DNA of 64,000 nucleotides from Psychromonas sp. L1A2 (GTDB lineage Bacteria > Pseudomonadota > Gammaproteobacteria > Enterobacterales > Psychromonadaceae): positions 2,356,001 to 2,420,000 of the forward strand of contig NZ_WUAG01000001.1 of assembly GCF_009828855.1 (NCBI RefSeq), written 5' to 3'. A program made the position numbers and the translations under genes. Within the stretch, counting starts at the first letter, position 1, and every line of letters begins with the position of its first letter. The notes beneath the pieces are model-generated. The model was not told the DNA's origin. It ran no database searches and saw only the letters and a list, made by a program, of their open reading frames with translations. Of the stretch, positions 1 through 53,101 are shown piece after piece.

Positions 1-504
1 ACTTACCAAAGGACTTCCACTAAAACCTTTAAGTGATGGAAATGATAACTCTGTAATTGATTTAGCTTCAGGGTGATCAGACTTATCACTAATTGAAACT
101 ATGTAACCTTTTAGTAGCCTAGCTTTTACTTCTACATTCTCGCCTACTTTACCAATATTATTAAACCCAAAAACTCTAACGTCTTGACCCAAAGATAATT
201 CAACATTTTCTATAGGAAAAGTTGAATACTTATGTGTTGTAGGGAAAACTCCCATGGCAAAATCAAACTTAGGATGCTCTTTAATGTTTGATATAGGTAA
301 TATTTGATTACTAACTAAACATTTACCAACTAATACTTCATCATCTTGCACCATCTGAATTATGTGACGGCAAGTTACAACTTTACCTTTGTCACCAACA
401 TAGAAAGCAACTCCTGCATATCTATCGATTTGTAGGTTAACATGGCCTTTATTTATGCTTTTTTTAGCAATTAATAGCGGTATTTGAAAATCACCAAAAT
501 TCAT
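1..504 (-). CDS. Trypsin-like serine protease domain protein (partial, 3' end outside window)
   Basis: The frame is open from the ATG at 504 to the left edge (168 codons, no stop), so the C-terminus is missing. A GGAGAAAGT Shine-Dalgarno precedes the ATG. The translation has the landmarks of a chymotrypsin/HtrA-fold peptidase: GVAFYVGDKGKVVTCRHII with the catalytic His in TCRH, a DFAMG block that fits the catalytic Asp, and FSGSPLV at the nucleophile Ser. No signal peptide is visible, so a cytoplasmic protein is likely. Lone trypsin-like domains of this kind in accessory DNA are often the N-terminal part of defence proteins, but the partner domain lies outside the window and I cannot say which. 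The domain is clear; the role is unknown. Confidence 0.75.
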   Translation of the reverse strand, partial: MNFGDFQIPLLIAKKSINKGHVNLQIDRYAGVAFYVGDKGKVVTCRHIIQMVQDDEVLVGKCLVSNQILPISNIKEHPKFDFAMGVFPTTHKYSTFPIENVELSLGQDVRVFGFNNIGKVGENVEVKARLLKGYIVSISDKSDHPEAKSITELSFPSLKGFSGSPLVS

Positions 505-2835: not shown

Positions 2836-2924
2836 AATAAACTACCTCCTAAATGCAAAAATACGCATTTATAAAAGATAGTTTAACTATCGCAATTATT
2901 CAAATAGGTGGGTGTCCAGATCTT

Positions 2925-3647
2925 TGTCCAACAGTTCGTTTTGTTGCGGTTAAATCGACAGAGCAACAAGACATTCAATCACTACAACGGATTGCTGAAC
3001 GATTGGTAAAAACAAGAACGGGTGACGTGAATCAGTTAAGAGGTTTATTATCTGAGTACGGCGTAGTGGTTGGAACGGGTATCACGACTTTGATGAACGC
3101 AGTACCTGATATCGTTGAAGATGCGAATAATGAATTAACGTCGATAGCACGCAGTTTTATCCTACGTATTTATCGTAATATACAACGAATAAGTGTTCAA
3201 ATTGAAGCAGTAAAAACAGAGTTGTTCGACCTAATTAAAGACAAAGATGAATATGCATTGTTACAAAGCATACCAGGTATCGGGCCAATTATTTCAGCCG
3301 CTTTAATGGCATCAGTCGGTGATGCGGGGGCCTTTAAAAATGGCAGGCAGCTAGCCGCTTGGATTGGCCTAACACCCACACAATATGCTAGTGGTGAAAC
3401 AAATCGAATGGGTAAAATAAGTAAGCGGGGCAATAGTTCGCTTAGAAAGTATCTAATTCATGGTGCGCGCACGGTACTGAACTGGTGTGAGAAAAAAGAC
3501 GATGTATTGAGTTGTTGGCTGAAAACGCTAAAAGAGCGAATGCATGGGTGTAAAGCAGTGGTTGCTTTAGCGAATAAGCTAGCCAGAATAATTTGGTCGG
3601 TATTAACGACTAAACAGCCCTTTGATGTGACTAAAGCTTGTGCATGA
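2925..3647 (+). pseudogene. IS110/IS1111 transposase, N-terminal DEDD domain deleted
   Basis: The remaining 240 residues start at CPTVRFVAVKSTEQQ and include the coiled-coil linker and the complete Transposase_20 domain (LLQSIPGIGPIISA, LAAWIGLTP, KISKRGNSSLRKYL, with the conserved Ser of the RGNSSLR block). The RuvC-like DEDD catalytic domain is gone. The open frame continues upstream to 2853, but those first 24 codons are translated RAYT flank and not part of the transposase. The protein cannot work alone; it could only be served in trans by a full copy elsewhere. Confidence 0.85.
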
Positions 3648-3737
3648 TAAAGCACAATGAACAGATAGAATATGAAAAACGATTTAATTAATCCACCACC
3701 CTAAACGGTAATAAGCATTGATGATTTAAAACGGTTT

Positions 3738-4003
3738 GTCTTACTCGGAACCTCAGCTGGACTTCTGCCTTTTAAGGCATAATGGGTGCAAAGGCGAGTA
3801 AGACTTCTTCTGGAATTCAGGAGGGCGCGGCTTCCCATAAAGTAGCCATTAAGACGCCGGATATATGTCAAGAAACCGTTATCTCTATGATGTAAAGAGC
3901 AGTTTAGACAAAGGTGATTTATCGACTAAAACGATCCTGTACAAAAGACAAGTTTAATCAGGAAAACACCCCTTTATTAATAAGGGTGACGAGTCTTTTG
4001 TAC
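3738..4003 (+). ncRNA. Putative bridge RNA / seekRNA of the IS110-type element
   Basis: Two large stem-loops lie in the 3' tail of the IS. Stem 1 pairs GTCTTACTCG (3738-3747) with CGAGTAAGAC (3795-3804) and encloses a small inner hairpin (3766-3779). The left side of the internal loop holds CTGGAC (3757-3762), the complement of GTCCAG. The right side holds TGGGTG (3783-3788). Together these match both strands of the RAYT terminus TGGGTGTCCAG, which is the apparent insertion site at 4069. Stem 2 pairs GTACAAAAGAC (3939-3949) with GTCTTTTGTAC (3993-4003) around an inner CACCC/GGGTG hairpin and could be the donor loop. Structure is seen directly; the function is inferred from IS110/IS1111 biology. 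Confidence 0.6.
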
Positions 4004-4097
4004 GTAATCAATTATTAAACAGAAAATAAAAATCAATCTAATCTTGATTTACAAAGAGTGACCATATATGTCCAGATCTTTCGTGAGTAAACCAACC

Positions 4098-4158
4098 TCA
4101 AACGGGCTTGTCCAACACCCGAATAAGGTGTCGGCTGCGCGACACCTATTCTTGTTTG
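4098..4158 (+). repeat. Solo right end of an IS91-like element / short attC-like site
   Basis: Matches the right terminus of the three 2.3-kb elements with a handful of changes: CTCAAACGGGCTTGTCCAAC, then the AGGTGTCGG/CGCGACACCT hairpin, then TTTG before TTA. On the minus strand it reads TAACAA...GTTGGAC, a short attC with a consensus R' box. The body of the element is gone, cut off by the IS110/RAYT cluster. It supplies the stop codon (TAA) of the gene at 4159. Confidence 0.7.
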
Positions 4159-4905
4159 TTAGCTGTGTTGCACGCGTAAAGTAGAGAATTTATTACAAAG
4201 TGAATGATACATTGCTTTTTTATATGCCTCTTCACTACCCTTTGGAGGAAACCATGATAAACCAGCATCAATTGCAGCCAAAAAACAAAGCGAGTTAATA
4301 GCTGCGATCGTTTTATAAAAATTTATTGCAGTACCATAATCTGAATCATCAAATGAACCATGTGCAATTCCATTTCTATTAGTTTTATCTTCGTGAGGAT
4401 ATGTACTTGATTCCGAATAGAGGTTATTTACTAAAAAGAACTCAAATGAATCGATCATTGATTCCACCTCTTCATACGCACCAAGTTTTTTACTAACAAC
4501 TTCATCTTTACAGCTTTTGCATATATTTTTAATAGTCTGTTTTACATGCTTATGATGCACACCCCGTTTAATAGCTAATTTTCTTGAAGCCCCTTCTATG
4601 ACAGGAATTAAAGTCGCTACGGCTGAATAATGTAATCCCATAAAATGAGCTTCGATACCATTATCCAATATATTTATATAATCTTTAATAAACGGAGTTT
4701 TAGAATATTTTTCAATAAATAAGTTAGCCAAATTATTCTCGGAATATATTGGCGAGAGGATATTTTCCAATTCTAGCTGTGTTAAATCAGCCTCATTTTT
4801 TATGTTTGCACCAAGTATATTATCCATTTCTCCCATAGTTACATAAGGAGGAATGAACCAACCAATTTTTTTAAATTCAGTTACCCAAGAATCAAGACTA
4901 CCCAT
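4159..4905 (-). CDS. Cassette-borne HEPN-like protein (248 aa)
   Basis: A soluble, mostly helical protein. Near its C-terminus it has R177-N-G-I-A-H182, the R-x4-H signature of HEPN ribonucleases, within NRNGIAHGSFD, a block often seen in HEPN proteins of the Apea/DUF4209 type. HEPN proteins commonly cut RNA in toxin-antitoxin and abortive-infection systems. The gene has standard cassette form: ATG about 20 bp after the GTTAGCT core, TAA formed by the TAACAA of the attC-like site. No antitoxin partner is visible in the cassette. Ribonuclease activity is an inference from one motif. Confidence 0.7.
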   Translation of the reverse strand: MGSLDSWVTEFKKIGWFIPPYVTMGEMDNILGANIKNEADLTQLELENILSPIYSENNLANLFIEKYSKTPFIKDYINILDNGIEAHFMGLHYSAVATLIPVIEGASRKLAIKRGVHHKHVKQTIKNICKSCKDEVVSKKLGAYEEVESMIDSFEFFLVNNLYSESSTYPHEDKTNRNGIAHGSFDDSDYGTAINFYKTIAAINSLCFLAAIDAGLSWFPPKGSEEAYKKAMYHSLCNKFSTLRVQHS

Positions 4906-4920
4906 TTAAATACCTTATAC

Positions 4921-5020
4921 AGCTAACGCCGCAATAAGCGGACTAAAATGGTGGGTTATAATGTGTAGCGAAGCGAAACGTAACCCACTGTTTTAGTTCC
5001 GTTTAATTGCCTTGTTATAA
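4921..5020 (-). repeat. attC site, intact (downstream of the 366-aa gene)
   Basis: On the minus strand it runs from TTATAAC-AAGGCAATTAAACGG to CCGCTTATTGCGGC-GTTAGCT, about 100 bp, with long self-complementary arms through GTGGGTTA. The ends of the neighbouring cassettes pair as expected: AGCTAAC here with GTTAGCT at 4158, and GTTATAA here with TTATAAC at 6517. Confidence 0.85.
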
Positions 5021-6516: not shown

Positions 6517-6610
6517 TTATAACGCCGCACTAAGCGGACTAAAATAGTGGGTTAAAATGTGTAGCGAAGCGAAACGTAACCCACTGTTTTAGTTCCGTTT
6601 AAGTGTCTTG
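6517..6610 (-). repeat. attC site split by element copy 1
   Basis: Minus-strand attC arms (CTTAAACGG ... CCGCTTAGTGCGGC-GTTATAA) whose R'' core is interrupted. Sequence leaves at CTTG (6610) and resumes at TTATACC (8914). Rejoined, it would be the attC of the SIR2 cassette, since GTTATAC at the junction is the exact complement of GTATAAC at 10238. Confidence 0.8.
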
Positions 6611-6708
6611 TTGAACGAAGCCGCTGTGCGGCAGAAAAACAAAATACCAATAACGTTCATACTTATATTTATATCACTTTTCGGTGATATCTAATAGGAG
6701 TATAAGCG

Positions 6709-7596
6709 ATGAACACCTCAGAGCAACAACACTTTAATCTTTTATATCAACAGCATTTGACCAACCTAACACTGCAAGGCATGAGACCTGCCACGATTGA
6801 TGCCTACTCTCGTGCAGTACGTAGGATAACTACCTTTTTTGACCGCACACCTGACACATTAACCAAAGCAGATTTAAAGTGTTACTTTGCACAACTCATT
6901 CAAACTCACTCGTGGAGTACCATTAAATTAGACCGAAATGGATTACAGTTTTTTTATAAACATACTCTCGATAGACAGTGGGAATGGCTCAATATTGTCA
7001 AACCACCACAAGTAAAACGCATTCCCGACATCCTCACGCCACAACAAATTGGACTGATAATTAGCCACACTCGTGCATTGCGTTATCAGGTGTTTTTTCT
7101 TGTTTTGTACAGCATGGGATTACGCTTAAGTGAGGCCCTTGATTTGACGGTGAACGACATTGATAGCCATACCATGCAAGTGCATATTCGCGAAGGTAAA
7201 GGAGGTAAAGACCGTTTACTCCCTTTACCCAAACGAACACTTTCTGCATTACGTTGCTATTGGTCAACGCATCGTCATCCGCAGTTGTTATTTCCAAGTA
7301 TTGGTAAAAACACACAAGTGCCGATGGATAAAGGCAGTGTGCAGAAAGCGTTGAAAAAAGTGATGACTGAATTGGGTATTAATAAATCTATCAGTCCACA
7401 TTCATTACGACATTGCTTTGCAACTCATCTCTTAGAGCAAGGTATTGACCTACGCTCCCTGCAAATACTATTGGGACATCACAGCCTGAATACGACAGCG
7501 AAATACACACAACTCACTCCACTCAAACAAAAAGATAATGTCACCGCCTTGAACCAGTTAACCGAAAGGTTATCAATTCAATGGGAGGCATCATGA
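6709..7596 (+). CDS. Tyrosine recombinase of the IS91-like element, copy 1
   Basis: A 295-aa phage-integrase/XerD-type recombinase. The N-terminal SAM-like DNA-binding domain covers residues 10-90. The catalytic set is complete: R139 (GLRLSEAL), a Lys in EGKGGKDR (164-168), H231 and R234 (PHSLRHCF), H257 (LGHH) and the nucleophile Y266 (AKYTQ). It lacks the extra insertion that marks integron integrases, so it is not IntI. ATG at 6709 behind TAGGAG. The stop overlaps the transposase start (ATGA), so the two are coupled. Its job in transposition is not established for this subgroup; it may resolve circular intermediates. Confidence 0.85.
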   Translation: MNTSEQQHFNLLYQQHLTNLTLQGMRPATIDAYSRAVRRITTFFDRTPDTLTKADLKCYFAQLIQTHSWSTIKLDRNGLQFFYKHTLDRQWEWLNIVKPPQVKRIPDILTPQQIGLIISHTRALRYQVFFLVLYSMGLRLSEALDLTVNDIDSHTMQVHIREGKGGKDRLLPLPKRTLSALRCYWSTHRHPQLLFPSIGKNTQVPMDKGSVQKALKKVMTELGINKSISPHSLRHCFATHLLEQGIDLRSLQILLGHHSLNTTAKYTQLTPLKQKDNVTALNQLTERLSIQWEAS

Positions 7597-8642
7597 GCCA
7601 ATTTATTGCACTACTTGAGCGCTATCAAGCACAACTGGAGCAACAATATGGTGGATTGTTGAATCAAGATATTCGTCGCGCTATCACTGATATGCTGCAC
7701 TGTAAAAACGATGTAAATCGAACGACCCAATGGCATTGTGGCCATTGTCAGCATGACCAACAACTCCCAGCATCTTGTGGGAATCGAAGTTGTCCACAAT
7801 GTTTGCATCAAACAACTTCAAATTGGTTAGCTAAACAGACCGATAAACTATTACCCGTACACTATTTTATGGTCACCTTTACGCTACCCTATCAATTGAG
7901 AGTACTGGCTCGTCAACACCCCAAAGCACTGTATCAATTGATGTTACAAGTGACGGCGGGCATATTAAAAGACTTTGCCAAGCGAGAGAATAAAGGCAGT
8001 TTAGGGTTTACTAGCGTATTACACACGCATAATCGGCGACGTGAATGTCATCCTCATGTGCATATCATTGTGCCCTGCGGACGTTACGATACGACAAAGA
8101 AACAATGGCACAAAAGTGATGCAAAATATCTGTTTAATGAATTTGCACTCGCTAAAGTATGGCGGGCAAGAGTCATTGATGCGATTAATCACAGCGCTGA
8201 GTTAACCATGCCCACTGACACGCCTAAAAAATGGATGGTCGATTGCCGTAAGGTCGGATTTGGTGCCTCTGCTTTTAAATACTTATCACGTTATCTGTAT
8301 CGTGGCGTGTTACCCGATAAAGACATTATTAACCTCTCCGAGGAAATGGTCACATTTAAGTATAAAGAAAGCAGCACTAATATGACTAAAGAACGTACTT
8401 TACCTGTGCTCGAATTCTTATGGTTAATCTTACAACACGTGTTACCAAAAGGTCTGCAGCGGGTGAGGGATTATGGGTTTTTAAGAGGTAATGCCAAACA
8501 ACTGCGACTACAAATATTGCTGATATTGGGGAGCGACATAAGCACAATGGCGACACCAGTAAAACGCAAGCGTGCTATCTGTATTTGCCCATGCTGTCAC
8601 CATGAAATGCATTTTATGGGCTTAAGTCGACTGAGAAACTAA
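7593..8642 (+). CDS. IS91-family Y2 HUH transposase, copy 1
   Basis: A 349-aa rolling-circle transposase. The N-terminal zinc-binding domain has C37, C49-x2-C52, C62, C67 and C70. The HUH motif is H155-V-H157 within ECHPHVHIIV, and the paired tyrosines are Y230 and Y234 (FKYLSRYLYRG). I place the start at the ATG of the ATGA overlap behind GGGAGG; an ATG four codons upstream is less likely. It would nick one strand and drive single-strand transfer; single-stranded attC hairpins would be natural substrates. Confidence 0.85.
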   Translation: MSQFIALLERYQAQLEQQYGGLLNQDIRRAITDMLHCKNDVNRTTQWHCGHCQHDQQLPASCGNRSCPQCLHQTTSNWLAKQTDKLLPVHYFMVTFTLPYQLRVLARQHPKALYQLMLQVTAGILKDFAKRENKGSLGFTSVLHTHNRRRECHPHVHIIVPCGRYDTTKKQWHKSDAKYLFNEFALAKVWRARVIDAINHSAELTMPTDTPKKWMVDCRKVGFGASAFKYLSRYLYRGVLPDKDIINLSEEMVTFKYKESSTNMTKERTLPVLEFLWLILQHVLPKGLQRVRDYGFLRGNAKQLRLQILLILGSDISTMATPVKRKRAICICPCCHHEMHFMGLSRLRN

Positions 8643-8913
8643 TGCGTGAAAACGTACGGTCTTAAACAGATCATTGACACAAATAAAAGATTAACAAGCC
8701 AGAGAGGTGATATGGCATTCAACATATAAAATATAACATACTGATATAATTGAGGTATCAATTTTATATTAGCGAGACTCGCCTTAAAGAAAGTTGAATT
8801 ATTGAGCCAGCCCAAAACCCATTCCACTATTTACTATATAAAGCAAAGAGTCTCATACGGGCTTGTCCAACACTCAGATAAGGTGTCGGCTGCGCGACAC
8901 CTATCCTTATTTG
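8643..8913 (+). repeat. 3' non-coding end of element copy 1 with attC-like terminus
   Basis: After the transposase comes about 200 bp of non-coding DNA, then the terminus at 8855-8913. Read on the minus strand with the flanking TA it gives TAACAAATAAGG, a hairpin stem, and CTGAGT-GTTGGAC: R'', L'', L' and R' boxes of a 55-bp attC. The same terminus ends copies 2 and 3. It replaces the function of the split host attC for the upstream gene. Confidence 0.7.
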
Positions 8914-8919
8914 TTATAC

Positions 8920-10224
8920 CTAAATTTGGTTCACCACTGCGAGGGCATCTATATTGTATGTTTTTTCTTTAATAAACTCTTTTATCATTACCCTATTCTT
9001 AGAAATTATACTTGACCAACGGATGTTCCATGAGTTGTAAGCGTGCCATGAATAGCCAACACGATGTTCTCGACACATCGAGGTCATAGATCTTAATGTT
9101 GCATCTAAATATACTTTCTCAATCGATGTCCCCTTAATTTCTAAAATACTAGATAAATATATCAACCACCTAGCAAGGTGCTCATATTGTTCCCAAGCAT
9201 TATTTTCACTAGTTAGTTTACGTTTAGATTCGATAATTTGCCCCAATGCCCGAACGACTTCAGGATGCTCTATGCTTTTACCAATAGCTCCGATAGAAGA
9301 TATAATTTCGTAAAATGCATTTTCCATTTTTAGAAACGATGGAGTGAAATAAGCGCTTTGGAAAACTACTTTTCTAATATTTTCGATTGAGGATTCAGTG
9401 CATTTTTCAGCCTCAGGAAGGTACATATTCAAATTAACAAAAAAATCATTTACTTCCAGCGAATCCATAACGCGAATACCGTAACAATGCGCATAATAGT
9501 CTTTTACTGATTGATCGACAGCATTTCTCGAAACTAAGAAAATATTTGCACCAATTACATGGTCTCTAGAAAAACCTTTATAGTCGTTAATAATTGATTT
9601 TAGATTGGCATCACCTAATGAATACCCAAGAATTACAACCGTATTTTCATGTAATACAGTACTAAGTTTCTTTGAAAAATAAGAGTTTGTATTCATAAAT
9701 TTAAAATAATCGTCTGAAGTTACGACCATGTTTTCAGGAGACTCTATAGATCCATGTACATGGTAGACTTTCACTTGTGTTGAAGAGCGTGGAATTGGCA
9801 ACCCAGGAGTTATAGACTGACACCTCTCTGACCCAGCCAATTTTTCAGCTAATTTATCATAATTTGTAGTAACAACACGGACAGATTTTGTAGACAAAAA
9901 TTGAGAAATTGCAGAATTATTCCCTTTAATTTCAACTTTTGAAATTATCTTAGACACTTCATCGTGAAGATTTTTATGATTGCTTAACAGTTCTATAGAT
10001 AAAACTTGTGCAACTTCCTCTAAACTCAGTGGGTTTTTTCCATTTTCGGGAAATAGAGCTAATTTTAAGTCTTTACCTCTAGGTGTTAACAAACAGATTT
10101 CTTCGAGTAATCCTTGCCAACTTGGAGCTTCATTCAAGCTAACTGCTTTAGAAAAACCAGTACCAGTAAATAAACATAATCTATTTGATACAGCGGCATA
10201 TGCAATTTCAAAATACTCGCTCAC
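8920..10224 (-). CDS. Cassette-borne SIR2-domain protein (434 aa), probable antiphage NADase
   Basis: The N-terminal 270 residues are a SIR2 Rossmann domain: GTGFS (21-25), TTNYD (119-123), catalytic His in YHVHGSI (H157) and ILGYSLGD (198-205). The C-terminal 160 residues are helical and unrecognised, probably a sensor or oligomerisation part. SIR2 proteins of this layout deplete NAD+ in response to phage. Start is GTG at 10224 behind AAGGAG; the stop lies 7 bp from the cassette edge. The start lies about 14 bp after the GTTATAC core, so it is a single-gene cassette transcribed in array direction. Confidence 0.85.
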   Translation of the reverse strand: MSEYFEIAYAAVSNRLCLFTGTGFSKAVSLNEAPSWQGLLEEICLLTPRGKDLKLALFPENGKNPLSLEEVAQVLSIELLSNHKNLHDEVSKIISKVEIKGNNSAISQFLSTKSVRVVTTNYDKLAEKLAGSERCQSITPGLPIPRSSTQVKVYHVHGSIESPENMVVTSDDYFKFMNTNSYFSKKLSTVLHENTVVILGYSLGDANLKSIINDYKGFSRDHVIGANIFLVSRNAVDQSVKDYYAHCYGIRVMDSLEVNDFFVNLNMYLPEAEKCTESSIENIRKVVFQSAYFTPSFLKMENAFYEIISSIGAIGKSIEHPEVVRALGQIIESKRKLTSENNAWEQYEHLARWLIYLSSILEIKGTSIEKVYLDATLRSMTSMCREHRVGYSWHAYNSWNIRWSSIISKNRVMIKEFIKEKTYNIDALAVVNQI

Positions 10225-10237
10225 TCTGACTCCTTAG

Positions 10238-10323
10238 GTATAACGCCTTGCTAAGCGGATAAAAACAGTTGGTTAAAATCGCGCAGCGATAACCAACTGT
10301 TTTTATTCCGTTTAAGCAACTTG
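10238..10323 (-). repeat. attC site split by element copy 2
   Basis: Arms AAGTTGCTTAAACGG ... CCGCTTAGCAAGGC-GTTATAC on the minus strand around a GTTGGTTA/TAACCAAC stem. It is interrupted after CTTG (10323) and resumes at TTAGTT (12627). Rejoined, it is the attC of the 242-aa cassette (GTTAGTT pairs with AACTAAC at 13389). Confidence 0.8.
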
Positions 10324-10421
10324 TTGAACGAAGCCGCTGTGCGGCAGAAAAACAAAATACCAATAACGTTCATACTTATATTTATATCACTTTTCGGTGA
10401 TATCTAATAGGAGTATAAGCG

Positions 10422-11309
10422 ATGAACACCTCAGAGCAACAACACTTTAATCTTTTATATCAACAGCATTTGACCAACCTAACACTGCAAGGCATGAGAC
10501 CTGCCACGATTGATGCCTACTCTCGTGCAGTACGTAGGATAACTACCTTTTTTGACCGCACACCTGACACATTAACCAAAGCAGATTTAAAGTGTTACTT
10601 TGCACAACTCATTCAAACTCACTCGTGGAGTACCATTAAATTAGACCGAAATGGATTACAGTTTTTTTATAAACATACTCTCGATAGACAGTGGGAATGG
10701 CTCAATATTGTCAAACCACCACAAGTAAAACGCATTCCCGACATCCTCACGCCACAACAAATTGGACTGATAATTAGCCACACTCGTGCATTGCGTTATC
10801 AGGTGTTTTTTCTTGTTTTGTACAGCATGGGATTACGCTTAAGTGAGGCCCTTGATTTGACGGTGAACGACATTGATAGCCATACCATGCAAGTGCATAT
10901 TCGCGAAGGTAAAGGAGGTAAAGACCGTTTACTCCCTTTACCCAAACGAACACTTTCTGCATTACGTTGCTATTGGTCAACGCATCGTCATCCGCAGTTG
11001 TTATTTCCAAGTATTGGTAAAAACACACAAGTGCCGATGGATAAAGGCAGTGTGCAGAAAGCGTTGAAAAAAGTGATGACTGAATTGGGTATTAATAAAT
11101 CTATCAGTCCACATTCATTACGACATTGCTTTGCAACTCATCTCTTAGAGCAAGGTATTGACCTACGCTCCCTGCAAATACTATTGGGACATCACAGCCT
11201 GAATACGACAGCGAAATACACACAACTCACTCCACTCAAACAAAAAGATAATGTCACCGCCTTGAACCAGTTAACCGAAAGGTTATCAATTCAATGGGAG
11301 GCATCATGA
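10422..11309 (+). CDS. Tyrosine recombinase of the IS91-like element, copy 2
   Basis: The 295-aa product is identical to the copy at 6709, with R139, H231, R234, H257 and Y266 all present. It is intact and coupled to the transposase by ATGA. Confidence 0.85.
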   Translation: MNTSEQQHFNLLYQQHLTNLTLQGMRPATIDAYSRAVRRITTFFDRTPDTLTKADLKCYFAQLIQTHSWSTIKLDRNGLQFFYKHTLDRQWEWLNIVKPPQVKRIPDILTPQQIGLIISHTRALRYQVFFLVLYSMGLRLSEALDLTVNDIDSHTMQVHIREGKGGKDRLLPLPKRTLSALRCYWSTHRHPQLLFPSIGKNTQVPMDKGSVQKALKKVMTELGINKSISPHSLRHCFATHLLEQGIDLRSLQILLGHHSLNTTAKYTQLTPLKQKDNVTALNQLTERLSIQWEAS

Positions 11310-12355
11310 GCCAATTTATTGCACTACTTGAGCGCTATCAAGCACAACTGGAGCAACAATATGGTGGATTGTTGAATCAAGATATTCGTCGCGCTATCAC
11401 TGATATGCTGCACTGTAAAAACGATGTAAATCGAACGACCCAATGGCATTGTGGCCATTGTCAGCATGACCAACAACTCCCAGCATCTTGTGGGAATCGA
11501 AGTTGTCCACAATGTTTGCATCAAACAACTTCAAATTGGTTAGCTAAACAGACCGATAAACTATTACCCGTACACTATTTTATGGTCACCTTTACGCTAC
11601 CCTATCAATTGAGAGTACTGGCTCGTCAACACCCCAAAGCACTGTATCAATTGATGTTACAAGTGACGGCGGGCATATTAAAAGACTTTGCCAAGCGAGA
11701 GAATAAAGGCAGTTTAGGGTTTACTAGCGTATTACACACGCATAATCGGCGACGTGAATGTCATCCTCATGTGCATATCATTGTGCCCTGCGGACGTTAC
11801 GATACGACAAAGAAACAATGGCACAAAAGTGATGCAAAATATCTGTTTAATGAATTTGCACTCGCTAAAGTATGGCGGGCAAGAGTCATTGATGCGATTA
11901 ATCACAGCGCTGAGTTAACCATGCCCACTGACACGCCTAAAAAATGGATGGTCGATTGCCGTAAGGTCGGATTTGGTGCCTCTGCTTTTAAATACTTATC
12001 ACGTTATCTGTATCGTGGCGTGTTACCCGATAAAGACATTATTAACCTCTCCGAGGAAATGGTCACATTTAAGTATAAAGAAAGCAGCACTAATATGACT
12101 AAAGAACGTACTTTACCTGTGCTCGAATTCTTATGGTTAATCTTACAACACGTGTTACCAAAAGGTCTGCAGCGGGTGAGGGATTATGGGTTTTTAAGAG
12201 GTAATGCCAAACAACTGCGACTACAAATATTGCTGATATTGGGGAGCGACATAAGCACAATGGCGACACCAGTAAAACGCAAGCGTGCTATCTGTATTTG
12301 CCCATGCTGTCACCATGAAATGCATTTTATGGGCTTAAGTCGACTGAGAAACTAA
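11306..12355 (+). CDS. IS91-family Y2 HUH transposase, copy 2
   Basis: The 349-aa product is identical to the copy at 7593, with zinc-binding cysteines, HPHVHII and the Y230/Y234 pair. It is intact, so the window holds two potentially active transposase genes. Confidence 0.85.
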   Translation: MSQFIALLERYQAQLEQQYGGLLNQDIRRAITDMLHCKNDVNRTTQWHCGHCQHDQQLPASCGNRSCPQCLHQTTSNWLAKQTDKLLPVHYFMVTFTLPYQLRVLARQHPKALYQLMLQVTAGILKDFAKRENKGSLGFTSVLHTHNRRRECHPHVHIIVPCGRYDTTKKQWHKSDAKYLFNEFALAKVWRARVIDAINHSAELTMPTDTPKKWMVDCRKVGFGASAFKYLSRYLYRGVLPDKDIINLSEEMVTFKYKESSTNMTKERTLPVLEFLWLILQHVLPKGLQRVRDYGFLRGNAKQLRLQILLILGSDISTMATPVKRKRAICICPCCHHEMHFMGLSRLRN

Positions 12356-12636
12356 TGCGTGAAAACGTACGGTCTTAAACAGATCATTGACACAAATAAA
12401 AGATTAACAAGCCAGAGAGGTGATATGGCATTCAACATATAAAATATAACATACTGATATAATTGAGGTATCAATTTTATATTAGCGAGACTCGCCTTAA
12501 AGAAAGTTGAATTATTGAGCCAGCCCAAAACCCATTCCACTATTTACTATATAAAGCAAAGAGTCTCATACGGGCTTGTCCAACACTCAGATAAGGTGTC
12601 GGCTGCGCGACACCTATCCTTATTTGTTAGTTTTGA

Positions 12637-13365
12637 CTAGTAACATAGTTCCAAAGCATCAGTATTTTTGATTTCATTACATTCAGGTAATAATTTGTCA
12701 AATTCACTTTCTATTTTTACTTTACTATCAATAAGTGTTTTTTCCATCGCATGCAAGGACAGAAATAAATAATTAATTTTATGACTTGTAACGCCATTAT
12801 CATTCAAATGTGTAATTAGTTTTCCATTTTTAGCATTGTAAGTTGAAATTAGATCTGGAAGATTTAAAGACTCTGATGATTTTATGTAGTGTGTGATCTT
12901 ATCTATATCATTAAAACTTAGATAAGGCTTATATATTTCATAGAATGACAAAAGTGACTTTGTATGCTGCTTCAATGGAAACTGAACCAATGAACTTATT
13001 TGAGATGTAGTCTCTTCATTTTGGTTAAGAAATATTTTCCTACTGTTTTCATAGTCAAACAAAGGGGTCTGTTTGGCTAATAAGTCATACTTTTCCCATA
13101 AAAAAGCATACTTAATTGCCTCTACATCATTTAATATTCTTCCATAAATCATTCGTTTTGCTTTTATAGTTTCAATTTTGGATTTTTTAGCTTGCTGGTC
13201 TTCATGATACATTACATAGCCATTTGCTATACCAGCTACTAAAATAAGAAGTAAAAGGCTAACCCCGAAATTATTAAGTCTCCCATTTTCTGTAGCACTA
13301 CCAAATAGTGCAACAATCGCTATAACGACAGAGACAGAATAAATAATTATTTTTAATGTAAACAA
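12637..13365 (-). CDS. Cassette-borne inner-membrane protein (242 aa), unknown function
   Basis: Two N-terminal transmembrane helices (about residues 3-21 and 34-52) are followed by a charged, helical, probably cytoplasmic region starting HEDQQAKKSKIETIKAKR. No enzyme motif is recognised. Start is TTG at 13365 behind AAGGAA, about 25 bp after the GTTAGTT core; no in-frame ATG is nearer. The stop lies about 10 bp before the cassette edge, now the right end of element copy 2. A membrane protein alone in a cassette is compatible with a defence effector or stress function, but there is no direct evidence. Confidence 0.7.
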   Translation of the reverse strand: MFTLKIIIYSVSVVIAIVALFGSATENGRLNNFGVSLLLLILVAGIANGYVMYHEDQQAKKSKIETIKAKRMIYGRILNDVEAIKYAFLWEKYDLLAKQTPLFDYENSRKIFLNQNEETTSQISSLVQFPLKQHTKSLLSFYEIYKPYLSFNDIDKITHYIKSSESLNLPDLISTYNAKNGKLITHLNDNGVTSHKINYLFLSLHAMEKTLIDSKVKIESEFDKLLPECNEIKNTDALELCY

Positions 13366-13388
13366 ATCTAATTTCCTTAAATTTTAAA

Positions 13389-13490
13389 AACTAACGCCCA
13401 CATTAAGCGGACTAAAATAGTTGGTTATAATGTGTAGCGAAGCGAAACCTAACCAACTGTTTTAGTTCCGTTTAAATTGACTTGTTATGT
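13389..13490 (-). repeat. attC site, intact (downstream of the 94-aa gene)
   Basis: Minus strand: ACATAAC-AAGTCAATTTAAACGG ... CCGCTTAATGTGGGC-GTTAGTT, 102 bp, with a GTTGGTTA/TAACCAAC inner stem. It is uninterrupted and serves, with 4921-5020, as the model of the native attC in this array. Confidence 0.85.
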
Positions 13491-13492
13491 AG

Positions 13493-13777
13493 CTACAAAT
13501 GTAACTCAATGAAGCCTTTTTTAATATCATAAATGAGATGTTTGGTCATGGAGAATTGAGGGTCATTTTCGTTAAAATGCTGTTTAATCAGATTTTGATA
13601 CTCGTTCACGGACATACCATTAGAAACATACTTATTAATGTTATAGCCAGAACAGTTTTCTTTACCTTCAAACTTTAAATTACTGCCTCTACGAGTGGAA
13701 GCTCCTGTAAATTTAATTTTAAAGTGAAAGTACTCCGACAAATCTATGCCAGCAATATTGGTATGATCGATTTTCAT
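13493..13777 (-). CDS. Small cassette-borne hypothetical protein (94 aa)
   Basis: Soluble, with no signal or membrane segment. Features are FKIKFTGASTRRGSNLKF, a lone Cys in NCSGYNINKY, and the end FIELHL. ATG at 13777 behind GGGAGT, about 27 bp after the GTTATGT core; TAG stop 5 bp from the attC. It is a typical single-gene cassette. I recognise no family. Confidence 0.65.
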   Translation of the reverse strand: MKIDHTNIAGIDLSEYFHFKIKFTGASTRRGSNLKFEGKENCSGYNINKYVSNGMSVNEYQNLIKQHFNENDPQFSMTKHLIYDIKKGFIELHL

Positions 13778-13799
13778 TTACCAAACTCCCTCAGATGCT

Positions 13800-13888
13800 A
13801 CATAACGCCCAATTAACGGGCTAAAAATAGTGGGCTAAAATGGAGCGAAGCGAACAGCCCGCTGTTTTTAGTCCTGTTGAATTGCTTG
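13800..13888 (-). repeat. attC site split by element copy 3
   Basis: Arms AAGCAATTCAACAGG ... CCCGTTAATTGGGC-GTTATGT on the minus strand. It is broken after CTTG (13888) and resumes at TTAGCT (16193). Rejoined, it is the attC of the 128-aa cassette. Confidence 0.8.
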
Positions 13889-13986
13889 TTGAACGAAGCC
13901 GCTGTGCGGCAGAAAAACAAAATACCAATAACGTTCATACTTATATTTATATCACTTTTCGGTGATATCTAATAGGAGTATAAGCG

Positions 13987-14874
13987 ATGAACACCTCAGA
14001 GCAACAACACTTTAATCTTTTATATCAACAGCATTTGACCAACCTAACACTGCAAGGCATGAGACCTGCCACGATTGATGCCTACTCTCGTGCAGTACGT
14101 AGGATAACTACCTTTTTTGACCGCACACCTGACACATTAACCAAAGCAGATTTAAAGTGTTACTTTGCACAACTCATTCAAACTCACTCGTGGAGTACCA
14201 TTAAATTAGACCGAAATGGATTACAGTTTTTTTATAAACATACTCTCGATAGACAGTGGGAATGGCTCAATATTGTCAAACCACCACAAGTAAAACGCAT
14301 TCCCGACATCCTCACGCCACAACAAATTGGACTGATAATTAGCCACACTCGTGCATTGCGTTATCAGGTGTTTTTTCTTGTTTTGTACAGCATGGGATTA
14401 CGCTTAAGTGAGGCCCTTGATTTGACGGTGAACGACATTGATAGCCATACCATGCAAGTGCATATTCGCGAAGGTAAAGGAGGTAAAGACCGTTTACTCC
14501 CTTTACCCAAACGAACACTTTCTGCATTACGTTGCTATTGGTCAACGCATCGTCATCCGCAGTTGTTATTTCCAAGTATTGGTAAAAACACACAAGTGCC
14601 GATGGATAAAGGCAGTGTGCAGAAAGCGTTGAAAAAAGTGATGACTGAATTGGGTATTAATAAATCTATCAGTCCACATTCATTACGACATTGCTTTGCA
14701 ACTCATCTCTTAGAGCAAGGTATTGACCTACGCTCCCTGCAAATACTATTGGGACATCACAGCCTGAATACGACAGCGAAATACACACAACTCACTCCAC
14801 TCAAACAAAAAGATAATGTCACCGCCTTGAACCAGTTAACCGAAAGGTTATCAATTCAATGGGAGGCATCATGA
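13987..14874 (+). CDS. Tyrosine recombinase of the IS91-like element, copy 3
   Basis: The 295-aa product is identical to the other two copies, intact, with all catalytic residues. Confidence 0.85.
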   Translation: MNTSEQQHFNLLYQQHLTNLTLQGMRPATIDAYSRAVRRITTFFDRTPDTLTKADLKCYFAQLIQTHSWSTIKLDRNGLQFFYKHTLDRQWEWLNIVKPPQVKRIPDILTPQQIGLIISHTRALRYQVFFLVLYSMGLRLSEALDLTVNDIDSHTMQVHIREGKGGKDRLLPLPKRTLSALRCYWSTHRHPQLLFPSIGKNTQVPMDKGSVQKALKKVMTELGINKSISPHSLRHCFATHLLEQGIDLRSLQILLGHHSLNTTAKYTQLTPLKQKDNVTALNQLTERLSIQWEAS

Positions 14875-15921
14875 GCCAATTTATTGCACTACTTGAGCGC
14901 TATCAAGCACAACTGGAGCAACAATATGGTGGATTGTTGAATCAAGATATTCGTCGCGCTATCACTGATATGCTGCACTGTAAAAACGATGTAAATCGAA
15001 CGACCCAATGGCATTGTGGCCATTGTCAGCATGACCAACAACTCCCAGCATCTTGTGGGAATCGAAGTTGTCCACAATGTTTGCATCAAACAACTTCAAA
15101 TTGGTTAGCTAAACAGACCGATAAACTATTACCCGTACACTATTTTATGGTCACCTTTACGCTACCCTATCAATTGAGAGTACTGGCTCGTCAACACCCC
15201 AAAGCACTGTATCAATTGATGTTACAAGTGACGGCGGGCATATTAAAAGACTTTGCGCAAGCGAGAGAATAAAGGCAGTTTAGGGTTTACTAGCGTATTA
15301 CACACGCATAATCGGCGACGTGAATGTCATCCTCATGTGCATATCATTGTGCCCTGCGGACGTTACGATACGACAAAGAAACAATGGCACAAAAGTGATG
15401 CAAAATATCTGTTTAATGAATTTGCACTCGCTAAAGTATGGCGGGCAAGAGTCATTGATGCGATTAATCACAGCGCTGAGTTAACCATGCCCACTGACAC
15501 GCCTAAAAAATGGATGGTCGATTGCCGTAAGGTCGGATTTGGTGCCTCTGCTTTTAAATACTTATCACGTTATCTGTATCGTGGCGTGTTACCCGATAAA
15601 GACATTATTAACCTCTCCGAGGAAATGGTCACATTTAAGTATAAAGAAAGCAGCACTAATATGACTAAAGAACGTACTTTACCTGTGCTCGAATTCTTAT
15701 GGTTAATCTTACAACACGTGTTACCAAAAGGTCTGCAGCGGGTGAGGGATTATGGGTTTTTAAGAGGTAATGCCAAACAACTGCGACTACAAATATTGCT
15801 GATATTGGGGAGCGACATAAGCACAATGGCGACACCAGTAAAACGCAAGCGTGCTATCTGTATTTGCCCATGCTGTCACCATGAAATGCATTTTATGGGC
15901 TTAAGTCGACTGAGAAACTAA
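14871..15921 (+). pseudogene. IS91-family Y2 HUH transposase, copy 3, frameshifted
   Basis: One extra base turns CTTTGCCAAG into CTTTGCGCAAG near 15257. The frame stops after about 133 residues, before the HUH motif. The remainder (15253-15921) is open in the next frame but lacks its own ribosome-binding site. This copy would depend on the other two for transposition. Confidence 0.9.
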
Positions 15922-16192
15922 TGCGTGAAAACGTACGGTCTTAAACAGATCATTGACACAAATAAAAGATTAACAAGCCAGAGAGGTGATATGGCATTCA
16001 ACATATAAAATATAACATACTGATATAATTGAGGTATCAATTTTATATTAGCGAGACTCGCCTTAAAGAAAGTTGAATTATTGAGCCAGCCCAAAACCCA
16101 TTCCACTATTTACTATATAAAGCAAAGAGTCTCATACGGGCTTGTCCAACACTCAGATAAGGTGTCGGCTGCGCGACACCTATCCTTATTTG

Positions 16193-16579: not shown

Positions 16580-16641
16580 GCTACTTCCTTATACAGCTAA
16601 CAGCATATTAACTTACAAAACACCGTATTTCAGGAGGAAAT

Positions 16642-16722
16642 ATGGCACCAATTAATAGATTAAAAATAGATTTATATTACGTTAATTCAACAGTAAAACA
16701 AGAAATTACAATTGAAAGATAA
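16642..16722 (+). CDS. Possible 26-aa peptide gene
   Basis: An ATG preceded by CAGGAGGAAAT at ideal spacing opens 26 codons (MAPINRLKIDLYYVNSTVKQ...). The peptide resembles nothing I know and may be the truncated start of a gene lost at the array edge. Confidence 0.3.
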   Translation: MAPINRLKIDLYYVNSTVKQEITIER

Positions 16723-16938
16723 AGTTTACATCATGCAGAAACACGACAATCTGCAATAATTACGGTGGAAATACGGCAATGTCAAAAAATGCAGTTGATG
16801 AAGATACAAGTGAGAGAAGCCTGAAAATATCAAAGTCTAAGGTGCTATGTGCCTCATAACGATATAGAGACTCAATAGAAAGAAGTAATTCTCTTTGCCT
16901 CTTTCTGAGTTAGCCACAACAAAGCGCTTTTCAGGCAT

Positions 16939-51304: not shown

Positions 51305-52655
<1,351 letters not shown>

Positions 52656-52677
52656 GTTTAATTAAATAGAATTTATA

Positions 52678-52702
52678 AAGCCTGCTACATGCAGGCTTTT
52701 TT
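52678..52702 (+). terminator. gapA terminator, copy 1
   Basis: AAAGCCTGC-TACAT-GCAGGC followed by TTTTTT. Confidence 0.92.
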
Positions 52703-52831
52703 GTGCCTTTAATAAAATACATTAAATGGCATAGCAGAAGAACAACGAAATCGAACTCAGTTAACACCCTAAATAAAGTGCTAGACCTAGTGGCGCTTAT
52801 TGCTAAATAAGTTTAATTAAATAGAATTTAT

Positions 52832-52857
52832 AAAGCCTGCTACATGCAGGCTTTTTT
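52832..52857 (+). terminator. gapA terminator, copy 2
   Basis: Same stem and T-run within the second repeat unit. Confidence 0.88.
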
Positions 52858-53000
52858 GTGTCTGTAATAAAATACATTAAATTAAACACATTAAATGGCA
52901 TGGCAGAAAAACAACGAAATCGAACTAAGTTAACACCCGAAATAAAGTGCTAGACCTAGTGGCGCTTATTGCTAAATAAGTGTAATTAAATAAAATACTT

Positions 53001-53027
53001 GAAGCCTGCTATATGCAGGCTTTTTTG
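53001..53027 (+). terminator. gapA terminator, copy 3
   Basis: Same stem with one loop change (GCCTGC-TATAT-GCAGGC), T-run intact. Confidence 0.88.
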
Positions 53028-53101
53028 TACCTGTCATAAAACACATTAAATGACATGGCAGAAGCACAACGAAATCGAACTCAGTTAACACCCTAAATAA
53101 A

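Follow-up and report, generated by a model that had tools for sequence, protein, structure and literature searches.

Sequence Analysis of IS91-Family Elements With a Tyrosine Recombinase, Strong Targeting of attC Sites and a Sense attC-Like End

Introduction

Cassette genes are shuffled mainly by integrons, whose attC sites have folded bottom strands that are known substrates of the integron integrase (IntI); IntI acts at the R' box of the bottom strand or at attI. To our knowledge, the origin of attC sites, and with it the birth of gene cassettes, is an open question. Here we describe IS91-type elements that break attC sites in a stretch of 64,000 nucleotides from Psychromonas sp. L1A2 (NCBI RefSeq assembly GCF_009828855.1, contig NZ_WUAG01000001.1, positions 2,356,001 to 2,420,000 of the forward strand); this whole stretch is called the window. 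Judged by sequence, these elements and their relatives are a clade of the IS91 family that is strongly targeted to attC and carries a sense attC-like end.

The closest described elements belong to the IS91 family (IS91, IS801, IS1294). The consulted sections of PMC3189936 describe a GC-rich stem-loop at the left end of the family, for which a 17-nt sequence was published, and, for IS801, the tetranucleotides GAAC, GGAC, CAAG and CGAC, which mark both the target and the left end of the element. The present elements resemble the family in their HUH/Y2 transposase (TnpA) with a Zn-binding domain, the absence of target duplication and the right-end hairpin, and probably also in a GC-rich left-end stem-loop like that of the family description in those sections (PMC3189936). 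They differ in having a tyrosine recombinase, in targeting the R'' box of attC rather than GAAC/CAAG-type tetranucleotides, and in their attC-like right end.

We know of no attC-like terminus in the IS1111-attC group of insertion sequences (IS). Its members ISKpn4 and ISPst6, as described in the consulted part of PMC11187229, also have a fixed target point in attC, but their transposase is a DEDD enzyme with a guide RNA (seekRNA), not an HUH/Y2 enzyme. Group IIC-attC introns, according to the consulted part of PMC9229058, likewise target attC and are known to insert antisense to cassettes, but they are ribozyme/reverse-transcriptase elements. ISShvi3 of Shewanella sp. Choline-02u (PMC9229058), compared here by its description only, is very likely the same kind of event as the insertions reported below. 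In the consulted part of that paper its account is one sentence, with no target analysis, ends or attC-like terminus, and the authors state that no IS interrupting attC sites was detected. This sentence (PMC9229058) was the sole statement on such events found in a literature search that mostly lay outside subscription papers and outside ISfinder.

Elements in the Cassette Array

The window lies on C1 (2.49 Mb), the larger of two contigs of the host genome, the other being C2 (1.85 Mb). On its minus strand, the window has a cassette array at 4.1-16.6 kb; both integron integrases of the genome sit away from it. The array is broken by three elements on the plus strand, namely copy 1 at 6611-8913 (2303 bp), copy 2 at 10324-12626 (2303 bp) and copy 3 at 13889-16192 (2304 bp, with a frameshifted tnpA). 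Each starts with TTGAAC, opening with TTGAACGAAGCCGCT..GCGGC, and closes with GTCCAAC, a hairpin and TTTG. An earlier note on this DNA had placed three 2.3-kb elements at one point of R'' in three attC sites, and this was borne out: the insertion point is G/TT of the R'' box (the slash marks a junction) in three different minus-strand attC sites with differing bodies, at 6520-6610, 10241-10323 and 13804-13888 for copies 1, 2 and 3. The left flank is the attC body ending in CTTG, with attC scores (threshold 20.7) of 29.3, 34.4 and 32.1, and the right flank is TTA followed by the 3' end of the cassette gene; the elements are thus antisense in the R'' of their host attC. Two uninterrupted attC sites of the array (4924-5016 and 13392-13486, minus strand) read CTTG/TTA at the same point, again as the note had it.

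Both genes of the element lie on the plus strand in each window copy. In copy 1, the first encodes a XerA-like tyrosine recombinase of 295 aa (6709-7596, plus strand) and the second an IS91 TnpA of 353 aa (7581-8642, plus strand) with the HUH motif H159-V-H161, the Y2 pair Y234/Y238 and a Zn-binding N-terminus. TnpA reached 343 bits against NF033538 (cut-off 125) and also matched Y2_Tnp and Zn_Tnp_IS91; its HUH and YxxxY residues are near-invariant across 42 intact copies. The recombinase falls below the cut-off of the integron-integrase model TIGR02249 (163.7 bits vs 265) and is not an IntI; at the IntI-specific insert, it is unaligned against IntI4 (2a3v) between residues 178 and 206. A Pfam and NCBIfam scan of both proteins returned tyrosine recombinase and IS91/Y2 models only, with no DEDD transposase and no reverse transcriptase. 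The element's own tyrosine recombinase is conserved, its residues R139, K164, H231, R234, H257 and Y266 being near-invariant across 37 intact copies.

Targeting of attC in the Host Genome and in Relatives

C2 carries four further near-identical copies along with a variant whose DNA is 80% identical, and two solitary right ends in the host genome are remnants of this variant. With one duplicated insertion counted once, the genome holds seven distinct insertions, and the left flanks of all seven pass the attC test (28.4-34.4). The threshold of the scorer is the 99th percentile of 1270 shuffles (maximum 25.5); on 385 genomic TTG/TT sites, the 99th percentile was 19.2, below the threshold, and the maximum 23.8. 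An initial score based on folding only was dropped as too lax, 49 of 400 random positions passing it at 13 pairs, and its TTG/TTA control (118/400) was contaminated by true attC sites and by the elements' own ends.

Of 24 genomes of the genus, 11 have relatives of TnpA (E up to 1e-30), as do 38 of 394 genomes of the order (E up to 1e-60); relatives were also detected at 22 loci of a genome collection, in Psychromonas, Moritella, Vibrio, Rheinheimera and a Desulfobacteraceae metagenome-assembled genome. A search of 388 genomes of the order for the left-end pattern, allowing one mismatch, was positive in 49. Among 129 distinct left-end matches, 77 score as attC; false matches, some of them not ends of the main clade, are included and none was dropped (for example, L105 lies in a coding gene, and the minus-strand hits L050 and L069 resemble the sister clade treated below). 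Complete elements, from several genera, numbered 58 in 53 loci; elements with the same left flank were taken as one, which applies to the duplicated host copy and to the two Rheinheimera copies L067/L068.

The earlier note had proposed a tabulation of flanks across genomes as the test of attC targeting, and copies in non-attC DNA as the evidence that would speak against it. Most insertions proved to lie in attC. The R'' of attC houses 48 of the 58 complete elements, 40 by the automated test (39 directly, and E33 with its flank scored as L035, 25.8) and eight by eye, with an altered R' or arm (E18, E20, E32, E39, E42, E44, E56 and E57). Two more are held by attC remnants (E21, E53) and two could not be judged because of an assembly gap (E7) or a contig end (E34). 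There are also six short derivatives of 286-934 bp with both ends kept, of which five lie in attC sites above the threshold and the sixth in a remnant. Six of the 58 complete elements are outside attC (E9, E11, E16, E35, E47 and E55), so that targeting is strong, not absolute.

The left flank is CTTG in 42 of the 58, TTTG in eight, ATTG in two and something else in a few, and the right flank is TTA[TAG] in 56. CTTG had been taken for a known IS91 target; it is instead the left flank, a part of attC, and is replaced by the TTTG and ATTG just counted. It could still be argued that the target is only the short motif CTTG/TTA and that attC is enriched since insertions are tolerated there. Insertions at this motif outside attC do exist: E11 lies at CTTG/TTA in an attI/promoter region, the uninterrupted homologue of which is present in the host genome (L002), and comparison of this homologue with L017 indicates insertion without target duplication. 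But 17 occurrences of the motif CTTGTTA in 60,502 bp outside the array scale to about 1,200 per genome, and with so many sites expected, seven of seven host insertions in attC are not a motif effect; TTTG, ATTG and other flanks within attC are used as well. We regard a target of the motif only as extremely improbable.

The left end at position 4016 of L168 and that of L165 have a common non-attC left flank, GTCCA(A/G)AAG(T/C)GAG/TTGAAC, possibly another target; the ANA-3 plasmid has a related sequence.

An Occupied and an Empty Site on Plasmids

A class 1 integron on a conjugative plasmid of Escherichia coli already houses such an element. The IncC plasmid RCS41_p (NZ_LT985243.1) carries a 2,336-bp member in the aadA1 attC, between aadA1 and qacE-delta-1. 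The matching empty site is that of R100 (NC_002134.1), GAATTG/TTAGACATT, which was taken as the reference; a neighbouring aadA1 record was set aside, not being a standard empty site. The junctions in RCS41_p read GAATTG/TTGAAC on the left and TTTG/TTAGACATT on the right. The left flank agrees with R100 at all 60 bases compared; on the right, identity runs for 49 bases, and 60 bases contain one mismatch. No bases were duplicated and none lost. Since the left flank is ATTG and not CTTG, the recognised feature is not an IS91-type tetranucleotide. At least 5,000 plasmid records contain a match to the 287-bp left flank; the element itself had no match in E. coli genome records at megablast sensitivity, and its sole full-length match among plasmid records is itself.

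Element Ends and Their attC Polarity

The left terminus, TTGAACGAAGCCGCTGTGCGGCAGA (6611-6635, plus strand, in copy 1), is a core-like GTTGAAC, counted with the preceding G, joined to a GC-rich stem-loop, and is found family-wide. The collected left ends have TTGAACGAAGCCGCTNNGCGGC or near variants, these ends having been gathered by that same pattern. The right termini (8865-8913, 12578-12626 and 16144-16192 in copies 1 to 3, plus strand) are the sense attC-like end and the presumed transposition origin. In a circle, the predicted junction would be GTCCAAC-stem-GTTGAAC, 55 nt with R-box-like ends. On either strand its hairpin is a better fold than those of shuffled sequences (z -2.6 and -3.1); one input sequence of this test had three wrong letters at its start, outside the hairpin. 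Nearly every one of the 39 distinct right ends has GTYCAAC...GTTGAAC, and an Rfam search gave no match.

The strand on which this hairpin resembles attC was judged by the extra base that the attC arm next to R'' bears. A single-sided bulge was scored on the stem alone, by the same rule in the right ends and in 28 uninterrupted reference attC sites picked by pattern and fold. Of the 28 reference sites, 27 have the bulge in the top-strand 5' arm and one in the 3' arm; of the 39 right ends, 26 have it in the plus-strand 5' arm, three in the 3' arm and ten not at all. The same placement in both indicates that the terminal attC is in sense with the element's genes; in most members the right end is, by this predicted structure, a sense attC 3' of the element's own genes. 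The 13 right ends without a sense bulge count against that assignment. An earlier and cruder bulge rule, applied to strings too short for many ends, gave 15/4/15 (5'/3'/none) of 34 right ends and 28/28 attC sites. A first count, with three right ends assigned to the 5' arm, 30 to the 3' arm and six equal, was dropped, the spacer loop having been mixed in.

The earlier note had recognised an attC-mimicking end but read it as a complete attC on the minus strand, whose arrival would split one cassette into two exchangeable ones. The mimicry stands, with its hairpin and R-box-like ends, and on the minus strand, where the hairpin folds too, the R boxes do read TAACAA and GTTGGAC. The polarity does not: only three of the 39 right ends have the minus-strand bulge, and the likely capture in Psychromonas arctica described below is also in sense. 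Exchange has left no trace in the host genome, where 10/10 right-end matches retain element sequence past GTTGGAC, and the one traceable composite recurs as a single block. We hold a minus-strand attC that yields two cassettes to be very improbable.

The solitary right terminus in the window (4097-4161, plus strand) is a remnant of the 80%-identical variant, 76 bp of which (4086-4161) are 100% identical to L003. A gene for an IS110-family transposase (2853-4090) adjoins it, and it looks as if an IS110-type element had removed the rest of the variant. Another fragment is found in the Shewanella sp. ANA-3 plasmid (L171:4900-5250), where 248 bp of a right end, 95% identical to the RCS41_p element, are fused to an attC-like stretch without a TTG/TT boundary.

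Proposed Mechanism of Insertion

The insertions are probably made by TnpA, in line with its near-invariant HUH and YxxxY residues; TnpA would take the bottom strand of attC as a copy of its own origin, with IntI later moving the product. An HUH/Y2 transposase would cut single strands at a hairpin plus TTG^TT. At the right end of the element, the plus strand reads AAC-stem-TTTG^TT, the presumptive start site of cutting; the bottom strand of the host attC, which is the plus strand in the window, reads AAC-stem-CTTG^TT and would be accepted as the target. With a like layout on a like strand, the folded attC would be a natural copy of the origin, and this resemblance offers a testable reason for an HUH enzyme to choose attC. 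IntI would then move the product by either of two routes, as part of an enlarged host cassette or, rarely, by taking the element itself as a sense cassette to an attI-like site.

The element's recombinase, instead of TnpA, could also be the inserting enzyme, if a circle with the 55-nt attC-like junction recombined at the TTGTT that it has in common with attC. Most targets would share this sequence with the junction, CTTG or TTTG being the left flank in 50 of 58 elements and TTA the right flank in 56 of 58. The conservation of the six residues named above fits such a role, and the identity of the recombinase exceeds that of TnpA in most relatives (73% vs 59% in E24), which suggests that the recombinase matters and speaks to that extent against TnpA as the inserter. 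However, a Moritella lineage lacking most of the recombinase has apparently still spread: its copies, 86-90% identical and with one common deletion junction, occupy three attC flanks (24.1, 26.9 and 28.3) in two genomes, and a fourth copy with the same junction and a decayed left end is present in a third genome. Moreover, three copies in P. arctica, 100% identical over 2,302 bp, have a frameshifted recombinase and an intact TnpA, and identical broken-TnpA copies at different sites were not seen among the 58 elements. Insertion by the recombinase is, on balance, fairly unlikely.

Several observations weigh against insertion by TnpA. The P. arctica frameshift rests on the length of a T run (six instead of seven) in a draft assembly, and one of the recombinase-deleted Moritella copies (E22) also lacks the first 17 residues of TnpA; since fuller recombinase genes exist in the same genomes, help in trans is possible. 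The flanks of the 58 elements do not follow the IS801 rule on target tetranucleotides. One-ended transposition, an IS91 hallmark, was not seen in the three solitary right ends inspected (window 4097, L002:6504 and L171), none of which has a TTG/TT left boundary.

A third enzyme to be considered is IntI. The earlier note had given, as its alternative, a plus-strand cassette copied by an integrase, and the elements do share with gene cassettes a core-site border at the left (TTGAAC), an attC-like hairpin at the right and a sense gene order. An ordinary cassette, all insertions of which were made by IntI, agrees with E16, which stands in sense at an attI-like site, and with the seven sister-clade elements at the heads of arrays. 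It does not fit the window copies, which are antisense inside the R'' of another attC, a position that IntI is not known, to us, to use. Antisense insertion at R'' is likewise the rule for the 48 of 58, as against one at an attI-like site. No left flank among the 58 ends in CG, and GG occurs once (E43), in an attC of the antisense kind; thus no copy in sense at attC R' was seen, and IntI as the inserter of all copies is quite improbable.

Probable Movement After Insertion

Directly upstream of copy 1 lies a cassette gene with a SIR2-like domain (8920-10224, minus strand); genes with such domains are a type often met in anti-phage defence. The host attC, the antisense copy 1 and this cassette form a composite block of 3,725 bp (6520-10244, minus strand) that recurs with 100% identity in first place in the C2 integron, with IntI about 240 bp away. 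On both sides the identity ends at the core site, and such exact borders are the trace expected of integrase-mediated cassette movement. In place of two exchangeable cassettes, the block fits one large cassette, although two successive cassette moves would look alike. Insertion leaves the host R' and stem untouched and turns R'' into GTTCAAC, which is still RYYYAAC. With attC as its target, both neighbouring sites looking usable and an attC-like end of its own, the element would couple two mobility systems.

In P. arctica DSM 14288 (locus L061), E16 is in sense orientation at an attI-like region. A stretch upstream of it is 75% identical over 108 bp to the attI region of the host genome, a multiple alignment puts the junction at the attI crossover, and downstream follows a same-direction gene starting at a core-like TTAGCTG. 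E16 is likely a capture of the element as a sense cassette at an attI-like site. Three findings count against this: the 108-bp match stops 106 bp short of the junction; no IntI is present in the 10-kb locus, the P. arctica genome having two elsewhere, one with a stop; and a scan behind the gene following E16 finds no complete attC, an R''-like AGCTAA running into other sequence. From E16 and the composite block, the cassette-shuffling machinery seems able to move the element too.

The earlier note is thus corrected in the orientation of the terminal attC and in its cassette arithmetic; the enzymology is what we infer.

Sister Clade

A sister clade comprises seven elements with an IS91 transposase and a tyrosine recombinase (L178, L179, L181, L182/L069, L183, L184 and L185); the hits L180 and L186 were left out, no left end being in reach. 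Their TnpA is 29-34% identical to that of the window where measured (L178, L179, L069), and the remaining ones were found with L178 as the query, at 54-57% identity. They have in common the left end TTGAACTAA(G/A)CCGCT, and their right end is a sense attC-like hairpin. All seven are followed by a same-direction attC, and none was detected upstream in the 2-6 kb examined; they stand in sense at the heads of cassette arrays. Their left flanks, e.g., AATAAGCTG/TT, resemble the attI core of the host. No integrase lies beside these arrays in the stretches seen, and IntI scored above the cut-off in two of five genomes searched, on other contigs. A single hairpin might combine the roles of HUH transposition origin, target and attC, so that such rolling-circle elements would be a source of attC sites, new cassettes or arrays; we consider this doubtful, but if true, the three-role hairpin bears on how gene cassettes are born.

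Other Features of the Window

The head of the window's array, at 16590-16830, has an attI-like core (minus strand, TTAATATGCTG/TTAGC) with no integrase adjoining, and similar cores occur in L002 and L057. A Y1-type transposase gene, below the Pfam cut-off, lies at 1003-2927 with partial tandem duplications; its repeats are 204 bp and longer, and the second copy is truncated (187 aa). A repeat of 155-169 bp is present in three to four tandem copies at 52553-53101, 3' of a gene which, from its sequence, we take to encode a glyceraldehyde-3-phosphate dehydrogenase (GAPDH)-like protein.

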